Shown piece by piece: positions 4,418-21,523 of a stretch of 24,919 nucleotides of DNA. The translations under genes and the position numbers were made by a program. The notes beneath the pieces were generated by a model, which saw only the letters and a list, made by a program, of their open reading frames with translations, ran no database searches and was not told the origin of the DNA. The stretch is taken from positions 1 to 24,919 of the IMG/VR virus record IMGVR_UViG_3300013093_000259; one strand, written 5' to 3'. How positions within the stretch are numbered: position 1 is the stretch's first letter; each line of letters opens with the position of its first letter. Origin of the DNA: a virus.

Positions 4418-4732
4418 TCATTCTCCCTGTATCAAACGTGCATTATGCATTCTTGTGGCATTTATCAACATATCCCGATTGTCAGAATTAATCTGAACAA
4501 CATTGTTTCTAAGAGACTCAACAGCAGATGCGGTGCTTAATTGTTGTCGGCTATTTTCAATTAAAAGCAAAGGAGTCCATGCCATAGAGCAGCCCCATTC
4601 GTCATGCATTTCCTTTGTTTGAGGGTCTTCCCCAGTAACCTTTACATGCCACATGCACTTATGTATTTTTCCGTCTTTTACGGTTTCACATTCAGCGCCC
4701 AAAGGACAAAAATAAACCCTTTCAATTGCCAT
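4418..4732 (-). CDS. Cys/His-rich small phage protein, probable zinc-binding
   Basis: This 104-residue protein has paired cysteines in the N-terminal half: FCPLGAECE (C9, C15), HKCMWHV (C26) and DEWGCSMAW (C48 or nearby), with nearby histidines. The set fits a small zinc ribbon. The PLGAECE...KCMWHVKVTG...DPQTKE...DEWGC pattern recurs in phage genomes of several host groups as an uncharacterised protein. The C-terminal half is helical (SAVESLRNNVVQINSDNRD). It lies between the fibre and the lysis genes, and its ATG overlaps the fibre stop. The role is unknown; it could help fibre assembly or act in the host. Confidence 0.8.
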   Translation of the reverse strand: MAIERVYFCPLGAECETVKDGKIHKCMWHVKVTGEDPQTKEMHDEWGCSMAWTPLLLIENSRQQLSTASAVESLRNNVVQINSDNRDMLINATRMHNARLIQGE

Positions 4733-11282: not shown

Positions 11283-13132
11283 TAGGCGTACACATTCCTG
11301 GCTGCGGTCCCAAACCCAGACCCGCCAAATGGTGCGCCCCCCGTTGCACCAGGCACTCTAACAACCTGAACATTCATATTTGATGATGCTTGAGCGTTGC
11401 TGAATTCTACGCGAACACCTTGTGGTCTTTGGTTGGCTATTCTGCTAAGAACCCTGACAAGCATGTCAGACTCTCCGCCCATCTCATTTCCATAAGACAT
11501 TTTCTTGTTAGCGCCTACATTGGATTGGCTTTGAACGCCCATAGAATCCATTAAATACTTGATCAAATCAGCTGCAAACTCTCTTTCTTGCTCATCATTA
11601 ATTGAATAGACCTCGCCAATGCCTTTGGCTGCATCCACAACCCCTTTATCAGCAGCCCTTTGGACGTCCCACCAATCGCCTATCCAATTAAACGCTTCAT
11701 GCAATTTAATGACGGTTTTTACCAATGACTCTAAAGCCAATACTAAATTTTCACCAAGAACGGTTACCCGCTCAACCCATCTGGCAAATTTTTCCATGTT
11801 TTCTTTTGTGCCAAATGCTTTCGCTATTTGATTTATGCCATCCGTAATTTGGTTGATTAGCTTTGTGAATACTTCATCAGAAGTAAGTGTGGTCATTATT
11901 CCCATGAATGTCTGACCTAGCTTTTCTAGTGAAGCAAAGTTTCTAATCATGGCCTTGCCAAACATAGTTTCAATGTCGGTCAGGCCATATTCAAACTTTC
12001 GTACAAATTGACGGATCTTGTTTTCGTCTTCTTCACCAATTTCCCTTTTACGGGAGGTATATTCTTTTTCTCTTTCTCCAATCTCTTCTGTTGAGGTCTG
12101 GGCAAGAGTTCTAAACTTTTCCATAGATACGCCGGTATCTTGGATGCCATACATTTTGTAGGCTTGCTCAAGGTTACCCGCATTCTGTTTCGCAATGCTT
12201 TGAATGAACTTAGTGGCTTCTATGGCCTGAACATCCATTGGTTCAGTACCCTTCATTCCCTTTTCTTGCTTGAAGTAGTTATAGAAGACGTTAGTAGGAT
12301 CTTGCCTCATGCTGGCAAGCCCTTTTAATAGCTCATCTGTGTCTACAACTTGACCAAAGGCAGCCTTTAAGTATTTAGGCGTTTGTACGTCTACGCCTAC
12401 GCTACGAGATATGCCCATGTCGTGGACAAGCTTTTCGCTCAAAGCAGTAATTGCAAGAACGCTTTTCATCCACCATGATCCTATCTTTTCTAGGATACCA
12501 ATGAATTTTTGCAGAGCGGTATAAGCGCCTTTTATGATCGTAGTGAAGAATTTCAGCGAAGAAGTAGCACGTTTTGACTCTTCCTTCTTCTGGTTGTCCT
12601 CTTCAGAGGCTCCATCGCCAACAATAGGAGGTTGAACTGCCTCCCCTTCTGGTTGCTCCCTTAAGTGGGCGGGAGTATATAGGCTGGTAAGTTTTCCTGG
12701 GTCATATTCTGTTGATCTACCTAGCATTGATTGCTTTTGTTGATTCTCAAAATACTTTTTGGCTTCTACTTGCTTCTTAAGGGCATCGCTTGCCTCTTTG
12801 TCGGCCTTTTTCTTATCTTCACGCTCTTTTTTATCAAGAAGCCTTTGATCACGAGCCATTAATCTGTCTCGTTCTTTCTTTCTTCTTTCGTCTTCTTTTT
12901 CGCGCTTAATACGGTCGCGCTCTGGCTGAGAGGCTTCTCTAGCCTCCGCAGCCCTTTCACGAGCTAATTTCTGAGATTCAGCAAGGGCTATCTTCCTTTC
13001 ATACTCTTGCTCATAGATTTCCTTGAGTTGAGCATTTAGCCTTGCTATAGATTCAACTGTTTTACCGAGGTTTTGTGTAGCAGATACAAGCTGTTCAACG
13101 CCGTCAAGTTTGATCTCTAAGATGTCGGTCAT
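11282..13132 (-). CDS. Tape measure protein
   Basis: This 616-residue protein is encoded right after the chaperones and before the hub. Residues about 30-135 are a long, highly charged coiled coil full of Arg/Lys/Glu. A Pro-rich break follows at 155-175, then a hydrophobic stretch at 193-232 (FFTTIIKGAYTALQKFIGI onward) that may be the membrane-inserting part. Helical segments follow to about 530, and a glycine-rich C-terminus ends it. At roughly 0.15 nm per residue it would set a tail of about 90 nm, short for a myovirus. GAGG lies 11 bases before the ATG. The stop overlaps the hub start (TAATG). Confidence 0.85.
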   Translation of the reverse strand: MTDILEIKLDGVEQLVSATQNLGKTVESIARLNAQLKEIYEQEYERKIALAESQKLARERAAEAREASQPERDRIKREKEDERRKKERDRLMARDQRLLDKKEREDKKKADKEASDALKKQVEAKKYFENQQKQSMLGRSTEYDPGKLTSLYTPAHLREQPEGEAVQPPIVGDGASEEDNQKKEESKRATSSLKFFTTIIKGAYTALQKFIGILEKIGSWWMKSVLAITALSEKLVHDMGISRSVGVDVQTPKYLKAAFGQVVDTDELLKGLASMRQDPTNVFYNYFKQEKGMKGTEPMDVQAIEATKFIQSIAKQNAGNLEQAYKMYGIQDTGVSMEKFRTLAQTSTEEIGEREKEYTSRKREIGEEDENKIRQFVRKFEYGLTDIETMFGKAMIRNFASLEKLGQTFMGIMTTLTSDEVFTKLINQITDGINQIAKAFGTKENMEKFARWVERVTVLGENLVLALESLVKTVIKLHEAFNWIGDWWDVQRAADKGVVDAAKGIGEVYSINDEQEREFAADLIKYLMDSMGVQSQSNVGANKKMSYGNEMGGESDMLVRVLSRIANQRPQGVRVEFSNAQASSNMNVQVVRVPGATGGAPFGGSGFGTAARNVYA

Positions 13133-13367
13133 GGGCCTGTTCCTCTACATAAATCCGCACACATTCCATTATATAGGAGATGATGTGGCCATAGTGCCAG
13201 TATGTTCTTTTGTGCCTGAGATCGTCTTTAAAGCTTCGTTCGCCATAGAACTCTGCGATAAAATTTCCTGCACGGTCGTTGTTTTCAGTTCCAAGCCCAA
13301 AAGATACGAGATCGATGGAATCCATTCCTTTTTCTGAGTTGGCGGTACAAACAGTTGCCATGTATAG
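13104..13367 (-). CDS. Frameshift extension of tail assembly chaperone (G-T type)
   Basis: After a -1 slip at 13367 translation would continue for 87 residues to TGA 13106-13104, giving a 206-residue fusion (119 shared plus 87). The extension contains EFYGERSFKDDLRH and HYGHIISYIMECVRIYVEEQ, a mixed charged and helical sequence of the T-domain kind that binds tape measure protein. It overlaps the tape measure start by 29 bases. An independent start at the ATG 13361 would give 85 residues but has no ribosome binding site, which favours frameshifting. The fusion is unusually short, only 22 residues longer than the short form. Confidence 0.65.
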   Translation of the reverse strand, partial: LYMATVCTANSEKGMDSIDLVSFGLGTENNDRAGNFIAEFYGERSFKDDLRHKRTYWHYGHIISYIMECVRIYVEEQAHDRHLRDQT

Positions 13368-13723
13368 AAAAAAATCAGCCTATCGACAACCTCCTCTTTT
13401 ACATCCTCTTCAACATCGGAGAATTGCAGAAGAACAGAACTGCCACGAATTACGGTGGTGGCCCCAATAATTGTATTGATGACTTCTTCTATTTCATTTG
13501 CCTTGCCATGTTTTTCTGCGGCATCTCTCAGTATCATTGTTGCTACTGCAATAGATGCCTGAATGCCAGCCATTCCTTCTGAGGTCATGTCTCTATAGGC
13601 TGACATGAAAACGCGCCTGTTTGAGGCAAACAACTCGGTTGGAATTGGCACAGAATGCACGACAAACTCGCCTTTGCTATCCTCCATGTTGAGGATCAGG
13701 TTTAGGTCTTTATTTATCTTCAT
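13169..13723 (-). CDS. Tail assembly chaperone, short form
   Basis: This 184-residue protein lies between the tube and the tape measure, the fixed place of tail assembly chaperones, which coat the tape measure protein during tube growth. It is largely helical and acidic (HGKANEIEEVINTI, DVEEDVKEEVVDRLIFFYTWQLF), typical of these proteins. A second open frame (-1 relative) overlaps its end and runs into the tape measure start, matching the lambda G / G-T layout. The 0-frame tail after the slip site is 65 residues. The ATG at 13723 is preceded by GGGAG in the second CAGGGAGA copy. Confidence 0.85.
   Translation of the reverse strand: MKINKDLNLILNMEDSKGEFVVHSVPIPTELFASNRRVFMSAYRDMTSEGMAGIQASIAVATMILRDAAEKHGKANEIEEVINTIIGATTVIRGSSVLLQFSDVEEDVKEEVVDRLIFFYTWQLFVPPTQKKEWIPSISYLLGLELKTTTVQEILSQSSMANEALKTISGTKEHTGTMATSSPI
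13367..13373 (-). other. -1 ribosomal frameshift slippery site T TTT TTC
   Basis: Codons 117-119 of the chaperone read ATT TTT TTC, so the heptamer T TTT TTC is in register for a -1 slip. In the -1 frame a TAG lies just two codons upstream (before GCT GAT), and the frame is open from there to 13104. The slip site therefore lies right at the beginning of the open window. A weaker second possibility is G AAA AAG (13328-13334, codons 131-132). Both give the same product length. Confidence 0.65.
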
Positions 13724-13727
13724 AATT

Positions 13728-13813
13728 AATCTCCCTGATTTAAATCTCCCTGAAGTATGTGATGGGAAACCAGCAGGGAGACTGGCCTTTCGGAAGCGAT
13801 CCTACCCATCACA
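13728..13813 (-). promoter_or_regulatory. Structured leader with anti-Shine-Dalgarno loop, tail chaperone gene
   Basis: In the RNA sense (minus strand) a 9-bp outer stem (TGTGATGGG at 13813-13805 with CCCATCACA at 13766-13758) encloses a small CCAG/CTGG hairpin (13785-13782 and 13773-13770). Its 8-base loop is TCTCCCTG (13781-13774). Downstream, CAGGGAGA occurs twice (13752-13745 and 13737-13730), and the second copy is the ribosome binding site 6 bases before the chaperone ATG. The loop is the exact complement of both copies; allowing one G-U pair, the match extends to 10 bases. This geometry would let the loop hide the start site. Confidence 0.55.
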
Positions 13814-13821
13814 ATTCTACT

Positions 13822-14265
13822 TTATACTGGAACCCACAGATCGTTAGATACTGACCAGTAACCGCTGATCGTGATCTGGAACTCAGCCTGTTTACCAGCC
13901 ATGCTTACATCGCCTACATTCGTAATAACGCAGTTATAGAACGTGATCGATGGGAACTGATTGGTGTCCGACTGTACGGTAACCGTTCCAAGGCTTGGAG
14001 AATTCTGAATCTGACTAATCCATTGACCAGAAAGAGCCAAGCTTTTCAGTAAACTGATTCTGATCTGTGAAGGAACATAAGGTTCTTCAGAATTGATCGT
14101 AGAGGTCAGACCCATAAGCTGGGTAGCAACATTGCCTTGGAAAGATATAGAAATGCCTTCTGCCCCCAAATAGGAAGCAGTGACATTGAGATCCGTATAA
14201 CTAGGGATTGATACGTTAGCCCGAACTCTATTAAGAGGGCTAGGTATTAAGTTAGGGTTAGCCAT
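13822..14265 (-). CDS. Tail tube protein (DUF3277-like)
   Basis: This 147-residue protein is encoded immediately after the sheath, where contractile phages place the inner tube subunit. It is beta-rich, with no signal peptide, and has the alternating pattern of tube proteins: ISISFQGNVATQLMG early, then SQIRISLLKSLALSGQW, and a final AEFQITISGYWSVSNDLWVPV-like strand pair. The length is normal for a tube subunit. GGAG lies 8 bases upstream of the ATG. The 98-base spacer after its stop holds a structured RNA candidate that may limit read-through or control the following chaperone gene. Confidence 0.85.
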   Translation of the reverse strand: MANPNLIPSPLNRVRANVSIPSYTDLNVTASYLGAEGISISFQGNVATQLMGLTSTINSEEPYVPSQIRISLLKSLALSGQWISQIQNSPSLGTVTVQSDTNQFPSITFYNCVITNVGDVSMAGKQAEFQITISGYWSVSNDLWVPV

Positions 14266-17982: not shown

Positions 17983-18024
17983 AATGGGCGAGACTATTAT
18001 GCCACCGCCCATTAACTTAGTCTC
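17983..18024 (-). terminator. Interlocking inverted repeats after the capsid gene (attenuator candidate)
   Basis: Read on the minus strand, GAGACTA directly after the capsid stop can pair with TAGTCTC. AATGGGCG, lying between them, can pair with CGCCCATT, which is followed by TTCT. The two stems (18018-18024 with 17990-17996; 18006-18013 with 17983-17990) interlock and share one base, so normally only one can form, apart from a strained pseudoknot. The second stem plus its short T-tract resembles a weak intrinsic terminator, and the first would block it. This occupies almost the whole 60-base spacer. Confidence 0.5.
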
Positions 18025-19676: not shown

Positions 19677-21497
19677 TTATACTCGAATTGAGCCAACATA
19701 ATTGGCCCCATTGCTGAAAACACCCATCCAAGCGCGTGGATCGCTATTCGCAGTTGGAGTGCGAACCATACGACCAGCATCATCACGGGATTCAATCAAC
19801 TGAACTTGACCTTCTGCCATAGGCGGAGCCTTTGCATAAGCCATACTGTCAGCGTAGATGGCATCTTCGACTGGCGCAAATAACGCTGCATCGTTGATAT
19901 TGCTTACGTCAACTCCTTTGAAACGCTCAGAGAACTGTGCGAAACGAGCAGCAATACGCTTACGGTAAGAGAATGCACTCTCACCAGCTAAAGGAGAAAC
20001 ACCACCGGTTTCACCAAGAGCCATAGCTACGCTGTCGGCACGAGACTGAGCCTTTGCAATTGTTTCACGCTCATCAATTGAACGCTCTGCCGTTAGACGA
20101 CGGAGTTCGGCCAATTCACGACGCATTTCTTCTAGACTATCTGCACGGGCGGAATCATCTTTCACTTCTTCATCCTCTTCTTTGGATTCTTCCTTTGCTT
20201 CCTCTTTCTCTTCTTTGTCTTCGCAGTCAGAGTCAGCTACGGTGTGGTGAGCTTCTTCAATTTCTTCCTTGACCTCTTCTTTGACTTCAGCTTTTTCTTC
20301 CTTATCTAAGCCTGCTTCATCAGAGTCAGCGCAGTCATTAGCGCCCATATCATGGGCCGCATCAAGTTTATTATGAGGCTCATCGTGCTTCGCATCAATC
20401 TTAGCAGCCAGAGCTTCAATCATCTTCGTGAGTTTCTCAATTGGATCTTCATGTTCCAATGGAGCCTCAACTCCCAAATTTTCTTCTTCCATTATTGATA
20501 CCTCATTCATGGAGTCTATACGAACGCCGTCAGGTGTGCCTTTATCCCACACGCCAACGGCGCAAACAGCGATGTGGTCAACGAACACTGGATTACCTTC
20601 TATCAACACATCTCCCTGCTTAACAGCAGATGCTCCTACGCTAACGGCAGGAGAAGTTGATAGTTGGTTTTCTTGCATTAACTTTGCTGCATCTCCATCG
20701 TAGATACGCGCAATGGTCCAAACTTCATCTCCATCCACATAAGGGAGAGAAGAGGTTCCTATAATCTGATTCCTGAAAGATTCAGAGTCTAGGAGTTTAT
20801 TCTTAGGATGTTCCCATACAACAGGTAACCCGTTGCATCGAGATAAGAATTCATTAGTCAGATAGTCGGCAGGGGACTTGTGAGCAATCTCGCCAGTGGG
20901 GCGCTCGGCAAGTCCCGTACCTGTCACCCTCAAAGCAAATAGCCACAAATTCCCACATCTCTGTGGGCTGGGGAGTAAACCATCCCTGATTTTTTGCATG
21001 ACATCCAATTCTGTCATTTCTCCGCAGTCTGGGAACACAGATGCAATGATCGTGCGACAGGCCGGGATCAAAGGCGTGGGCAACTGTTTTAAGTCGAACC
21101 ACCCGTAATCGGTAGACTCCTCATTCAATATAGGAGTAAATTGATCGTCTGATAGGAATGCATGAAAGTTGATCCCGTCAGAATCAAAGCGCCCTATGGG
21201 CAATGCTGAAATAGTGTGATGACCTACTTCTTCCCACGTTTCTCTAGCAGCAGCCGCATATGGTGATTCTCCGGGGACAATATGTCCACCAGGAAACGCC
21301 CAATAGCCTGCGCGATTAGTGGCTTCAGTAGCTCTCTTGATGAGAAGTATTTTTCCGTTTTTGTGGTGAAGAATACCCGCGGCATCATCTTTATGTTCGA
21401 TGAATTTTTCGCCCACAGATTTAGGAATGCCTATAGTAGATTTTCCTTTGGCTGCAGCATACATTGCCTTACGTTGATCTTCCGATTTAAACGGCAT
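19677..21497 (-). CDS. NUDIX - DUF2213 capsid protease - scaffold fusion
   Basis: This 606-residue multidomain protein sits in the prohead protease/scaffold position. Residues 1-35 carry a small phage motif (FKSEDQRKAMYAAAKGKS). Residues 38-150 are a NUDIX hydrolase: the box G71-x5-E77-x7-R85-E86-x2-E89-E90-x-G92 is complete. Residues about 180-335 resemble the DUF2213 prohead protease, with candidate catalytic S282 (TSPAVSVG) and H308 (VDHIAV). Residues about 345-455 are very rich in Glu/Asp/Lys, followed by a coiled-coil-like segment (455-485) and a C-terminal region to 606, like an internal scaffold. No separate scaffold gene is present. The start is the ATG at 21497, with AGGA 7 bases upstream; a GTG two codons earlier is rejected. 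The NUDIX substrate is unknown. Confidence 0.88.
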   Translation of the reverse strand: MPFKSEDQRKAMYAAAKGKSTIGIPKSVGEKFIEHKDDAAGILHHKNGKILLIKRATEATNRAGYWAFPGGHIVPGESPYAAAARETWEEVGHHTISALPIGRFDSDGINFHAFLSDDQFTPILNEESTDYGWFDLKQLPTPLIPACRTIIASVFPDCGEMTELDVMQKIRDGLLPSPQRCGNLWLFALRVTGTGLAERPTGEIAHKSPADYLTNEFLSRCNGLPVVWEHPKNKLLDSESFRNQIIGTSSLPYVDGDEVWTIARIYDGDAAKLMQENQLSTSPAVSVGASAVKQGDVLIEGNPVFVDHIAVCAVGVWDKGTPDGVRIDSMNEVSIMEEENLGVEAPLEHEDPIEKLTKMIEALAAKIDAKHDEPHNKLDAAHDMGANDCADSDEAGLDKEEKAEVKEEVKEEIEEAHHTVADSDCEDKEEKEEAKEESKEEDEEVKDDSARADSLEEMRRELAELRRLTAERSIDERETIAKAQSRADSVAMALGETGGVSPLAGESAFSYRKRIAARFAQFSERFKGVDVSNINDAALFAPVEDAIYADSMAYAKAPPMAEGQVQLIESRDDAGRMVRTPTANSDPRAWMGVFSNGANYVGSIRV

Positions 21498-21523
21498 AAC
21501 CACATCCTATGTGAATATATATG

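Follow-up and report, generated by a model that had tools for sequence, protein, structure and literature searches.

A divergent int-alpA RNA between phage tail genes, with one hairpin loop and two covarying targets, as a candidate intercistronic translation switch

The window analyzed here is a 24,919-nt stretch of viral DNA (IMG/VR record IMGVR_UViG_3300013093_000259, positions 1 to 24,919), on the minus strand of which a 90-nt leader lies between the stop codon of a tail tube gene and the ATG (13723-13721) of the next gene (Table 1). The upstream product is assigned a tail-tube fold on the basis of its AlphaFold model (pLDDT 67), for which Foldseek matches tail-tube/Hcp-fold PDB proteins (best E 6e-4). 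The downstream gene encodes a helical protein that is named a tail assembly chaperone by position; its predicted model had no PDB match, and the structure gave no chaperone name. On the same strand, a −1 frame ORF (13104-13361) overlaps the chaperone gene at its 3′ end and continues beyond its stop codon, as expected for a G/GT-like programmed frameshift. Elsewhere on the minus strand, the gene for a 608-aa protein with a NUDIX domain and a weak match to a head maturation protease (phrog_3270; 19677-21503) lies directly upstream of capsid-type genes, and the gap after the probable capsid gene contains a plain hairpin (AATGGGCG/CGCCCATT, 17983-18013), which was not recognized as an int-alpA RNA.

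Read directly on the minus strand, the leader has the layout TGTGATGGG-TA-GGATCGCTTCC-GAAAGG-CCAG-TCTCCCTG-CTGG-TTT-CCCATCACA-TACTT-CAGGGAGA-TTTAAAT-CAGGGAGA-TTAATT-ATG. Direct reading and a structural descriptor, which scored 46.7 at the leader and no higher than 35.5 when the window was shuffled 20 times, identified three stems arranged as a three-way junction, P1-UA-P2-GAAA-P3-U(U)-P1′. The P3 loop (L3) is complementary to two identical targets: T1, a single-stranded copy starting 5 nt past P1, and T2, which ends 6 nt before the ATG and has a predicted duplex energy of −8.2 kcal/mol with the 16S tail. A sequence-only reading of this DNA had already described the match of the loop to both copies, which is correct to the base, as well as the 9-bp enclosing stem and the identity of the second copy with the chaperone ribosome binding site (RBS), both of which are present; it missed the third stem P2, the RBS-holding hairpin P4 and the membership in int-alpA RNA. 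The extension of the pairing to 10 bases that it proposed (AGTCTCCCTG with CAGGGAGATT) can be read in the letters, but would cost the inner stem, because the two extra bases belong there.

Table 1. Coordinates of the leader elements and flanking genes in the window.
Feature	Position	Strand	Basis and remarks
Upstream gene, tail tube protein, 147 aa	13822..14265	-	ORF; stop codon 8 nt before P1
P1, 5′ strand TGTGATGGG	13805..13813	-	Direct reading; 9 bp; covaries in homologues
Junction P1/P2, conserved UA	13803..13804	-	UA in 30/31 representatives (the parsing descriptor itself anchors on TA); invariant in A11
P2 hairpin GGA[UCGCU]UCC	13792..13802	-	Descriptor; G-C/C-G and third-pair exchanges in A11
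Junction P2/P3, conserved GAA(A)	13786..13791	-	Member comparison
P3 hairpin CCAG[UCUCCCUG]CUGG	13770..13785	-	Direct reading, descriptor and covariation
L3, P3 loop UCUCCCUG, partner of T1 or T2	13774..13781	-	Swap tests
Junction P3/P1, UUU	13767..13769	-	Direct reading; U or CU in most members
P1, 3′ strand CCCATCACA	13758..13766	-	Direct reading; L002 has CCCGTCACA, pairing kept
T1, first target CAGGGAGA, pseudoknot partner of L3	13745..13752	-	8 bp with L3; covaries in relatives
P4 hairpin AAUC[AGGGA]GAUU, RBS in loop	13728..13740	-	Weak in window, 4 bp
T2, second target CAGGGAGA, chaperone RBS	13730..13737	-	8 bp with L3
Downstream gene, helical 184-aa protein	13169..13723	-	ORF; phrog_11810 of unknown function

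In the energy model, pairing of L3 with either target yields −13.1 kcal/mol, and the identity of the two targets makes a balanced switch plausible in the window. The nested fold of the leader shows no gain in stability over shuffles (z 0.08), and therefore thermodynamics alone gives it no support; the energy model favours another nested fold that breaks P1 (−28.1 versus about −20.5 kcal/mol, the pseudoknot not being counted). A plain intrinsic terminator was rejected, as the terminator scan found none in the window leader, and a repeat element of the record was rejected, as there is one copy only. A scan of window positions 13600-14000 for consensus promoters found none.

Homologues were gathered by protein-guided scans of viral contigs. 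Leaders of 84-99 nt occupy the same gap in L002, L003, L006, L013, L017, L019-L026 and L089, and more distant ones were found in L143/L144. Most other relatives have no gap between the tube and chaperone genes; the leader is dispensable, because L004 and L005, whose tube proteins are ~50% identical, have none. The chaperone gene still has CAGGG-type ribosome sites in the leaderless L070, L133, L137 and L141, and plain terminator-like hairpins occur in the tube-chaperone gap of some relatives. Six cultured relatives that share the tube gene have no int-alpA RNA, and a nucleotide search of named phages returned no match. The homologous leaders have the same architecture with changed letters, and loop and T1 change together: UCUCCCUG/CAGGGAGA in the window, GGCCCCCUG/CAGGGGGCC in L003, ACCCUG/CAGGGU in L006 and UUCCUUG/CAAGGA in L143. 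The two targets read CAGGGGGCC/CAGGGG in L003 and CAAGGA twice in L143, and P4 is stronger in relatives than in the window (UUCAAU/AUUGAA in L006, AUGAC/GUCAU in L143). In most sister leaders, L3 forms 4-5 Watson-Crick pairs with T2 versus 5-7 with T1. When homologous leaders were compared, as the sequence-only reading had proposed, a loop varying freely beside a constant RBS was not seen; instead, the loop covaries with the repeats. Translation past the tube stop codon into the leader was also considered; the window keeps this frame open, but L003 and L006 have early stops in it, which excludes a conserved product.

A covariance model of the tube-chaperone leaders found further copies in the same phages, past a probable capsid gene, which Rfam named int-alpA RNA (RF02996; 37-47 bits, cut-off 35.8). 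The gathering cut-off of 35.8 bits is passed by the orthologous leaders L024/L115 (37.4 bits) and L143 (46.6 bits); the window leader has no match to RF02996 at E≤10 and does not reach this cut-off. A second covariance model, R2, was built from 32 other members, some chromosomal and some from phages but next to other genes, with tube-chaperone leaders left out. The window leader is the only match of R2 in the window (42.1 bits, E 1e-10), and R2 also finds the sister tube-chaperone leaders. On this match and the intermediate sequences rests our assignment of the window leader as a divergent member of int-alpA RNA. The leader shares with the class the three-way junction P1-UA-P2-GAAA-P3-(C)U-P1′, the stems of which covary, and a conserved purine-rich 3′ end, T1, that can pair with the P3 loop. 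Members of int-alpA RNA typically, though not necessarily, lie between an integrase gene and its downstream neighbour; the window copy lies between tube and chaperone genes.

The phage copies are preceded by a stop codon and followed by a start codon on the same strand, as are many chromosomal copies, and they adjoin tube or probable capsid genes on the 3′ side. In many chromosomal copies, the RNA starts 4-26 nt past the stop codon of the upstream ORF and before another ORF; at some chromosomal loci no clean upstream stop codon is nearby, the reading being limited in part by start codons and fragments. The one upstream ORF compared with Pfam is a phage integrase, the C-terminal motif of which is shared by many others, and in E. 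coli D5 the RNA lies between genes annotated as a tyrosine recombinase (integrase) and a hypothetical protein. A similar stretch occurs in 49 of 5426 E. coli genomes, and int-alpA copies were found in 36/274 gammaproteobacterial and 6/240 alphaproteobacterial genomes sampled. The proteins encoded downstream differ widely, and most have no assigned family. Second phage copies lie past the probable capsid gene and before a small phrog_6737 gene (L114:622-710, L118/L119:622-711, L116:614-707 and L146:110-179), and one phage (L003/L114 contig) has both this copy and the tube-chaperone copy. An int-alpA-like RNA with GACGG twice precedes a Toprim-domain replication gene (L217:1503-1573; phage record G015, 4548-4634), and the G015 phage has a tube-chaperone copy as well.

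Covariation was evaluated in 31 members of <70% identity, which were not selected on the L3-T1, L3-T2 or P4 pairings. The mean run of L3-T1 pairing was 5.52 versus 3.84 with swapped partners (z 9.2), that of L3-T2 pairing 5.29 versus 3.92 (z 7.8), and the P4 score 12.7 versus 8.8 (z 7.9); each exceeded all 20,000 swaps. Both loop pairings were also recovered in the chromosomal copies alone (L3-T1 z 6.4, L3-T2 z 6.5), in the phage copies alone (p 0.0005 and p 0.01, respectively) and in an analysis restricted to the tube-chaperone leaders (p about 0.001 each). In A11, 93% of stem cells are paired versus 33-47% when slid, stem double changes number 133 versus 39 shuffled, and the joints UA and GAA(A) are near-invariant while the stem letters vary freely, counts that are partly circular in that the descriptor presupposes the stems and is anchored on UA, and A11 was built from descriptor-parsed members. 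Outside phage tails, duplicated targets include GUGAGAG (L282), UACGA (L279), GACGG (L217) and GGUAGGG (L289), each present twice. Several of the T2 copies (GUGAGAG, UACGA and GACGG) are not plain Shine-Dalgarno sequences, and the duplication is therefore not a by-product of RBS similarity. Chance was rejected by the window shuffles and the swap tests.

Comparison of the members thus reveals, on covariation grounds, an intercistronic RNA in which one loop has two covarying targets, the second at the RBS. We consider it probable, from these sequence comparisons, that the leader is a cis-acting intercistronic translation switch in which L3 pairs with T1 or T2. L3 would hold one partner at a time, making the two pairings mutually exclusive. 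The L3-T1 pseudoknot, formed first in transcription, would leave the RBS open for the chaperone gene, and pairing of L3 with T2, as a loop-loop contact or a nested helix, would close it; T1 pairing is taken as the open state because it would form first and shows the stronger conservation in the tail leaders. The upstream gene ends a few bases ahead of P1, which suggests control by terminating ribosomes or a junction-binding factor, either of which might shift the balance and thereby the dose of the downstream protein. RBS blocking may be weak in the sister tube-chaperone leaders, because T2 pairs less well with L3 than T1 does there. The idea of a translational switch put forward in the sequence-only reading thus stands insofar as the loop is able to pair with a duplicated RBS and covaries with it family-wide, but the switch is not confined to tail tube and chaperone genes: the same element follows integrase and probable capsid genes and precedes a phage Toprim gene. 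Of its suggestion that two targets offer a spare or a trap, the trap half is weaker in most sister leaders than in the window. That the int-alpA class as a whole consists of self-contained intercistronic toggles, in which two identical targets, one of them the RBS in its hairpin loop, compete for one loop and which are flipped by ribosomes ending the upstream gene, is a tentative and somewhat doubtful generalization.

Of the other explanations, a purely activating pseudoknot is rather unlikely. In repZ of ColIb-P9, a pseudoknot must form beside the ribosome site for downstream translation (PMC8383071), and on this precedent L3-T1 pairing would be needed to translate the downstream gene, the match to T2 reflecting RBS-likeness only; T1 pairing does vary less than T2 pairing among tube-chaperone leaders, but T2 covaries with L3 independently (z 7.8), including in members whose T2 is no Shine-Dalgarno sequence (L282, L279 and L217). 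The element might instead act mainly on transcription or mRNA stability, its folded 3′ end protecting or attenuating the message or working with terminators. The position of copies after abundant structural genes (probable capsid, tube) and the plain hairpins in the same gap of some relatives are in keeping with this, as are the terminator-like hairpins between T1 and T2 in the capsid-gene copies L209, L210, L212 and L216 (about 1480-1600; terminator scan: L210, L216), which suggest an added attenuation step and thus a transcriptional side too. However, such an element would need no second loop target in a start-codon hairpin, and no terminator was found in the window leader or, by eye, in the parsed chromosomal copies, so that we regard this account as improbable. 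There is an equally slim chance that the leader is a riboswitch sensing a ligand or protein, with the junction and its UA/GAAA joints as aptamer and the L3/T1/T2 exchange as expression platform, which is a more specific version of the translation switch and overlaps with it. Joint letters that are kept while stems change freely would fit an aptamer, but may serve the fold shape only, and the downstream genes have no evident common pathway; no ligand or protein is known to bind. A trans-acting sRNA, the loop of which targets other messengers, is highly improbable: Rfam types int-alpA as 'Gene; sRNA' and the CCU-rich loop could bind ribosome sites, but the loop covaries with two sites of its own transcript, upstream of an ORF, and no promoter-like site was found around the window copy.

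The RNA class itself was known already; its phage context, the doubling of the target and P4 are new as far as the literature searched shows. In that literature, no described role for int-alpA RNA was found, nor were the dual-target anatomy with P4 or a use in phage structural operons; the original int-alpA description lies outside that literature, and priority for the pseudoknot is therefore not judged here. For an RNA now filed as sRNA, the covarying duplicated target at the start codon provides a concrete, testable role; it also widens the range of the class to phage structural genes and supplies a compact design for a two-target switch. If the toggle reading is true, phages and integrative elements would adjust the dose of the following gene with no protein or ligand involved.

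Compared with int-alpA RF02996, the leader has the same three-way junction, joints (UA, GAAA, CU) and order of elements, and the 3′ end of the Rfam model (AgGG) corresponds to T1; in contrast, the window copy lies in a late-gene context, the Rfam model stops at T1 without T2 and P4, and the Rfam type differs from the cis element proposed here. The mRNA-leader pseudoknots of S15 rpsO, the S4 alpha operon and T4 gene 32 are autoregulatory, exert cis control of translation at the RBS and bind their own protein product. A pseudoknot at the RBS with cis control is proposed for the leader as well, whereas its downstream genes are mutually unrelated and no binder is known. With PK-repZ of ColIb-P9 we know of no shared sequence or junction; the likeness lies in a hairpin loop that pairs with sequence further downstream, immediately ahead of a ribosome site, and in upstream translation that ends nearby. 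The two differ in that PK-repZ is under the control of an antisense RNA, of which none is seen here, and in that the loop has one target in PK-repZ and two in the leader.
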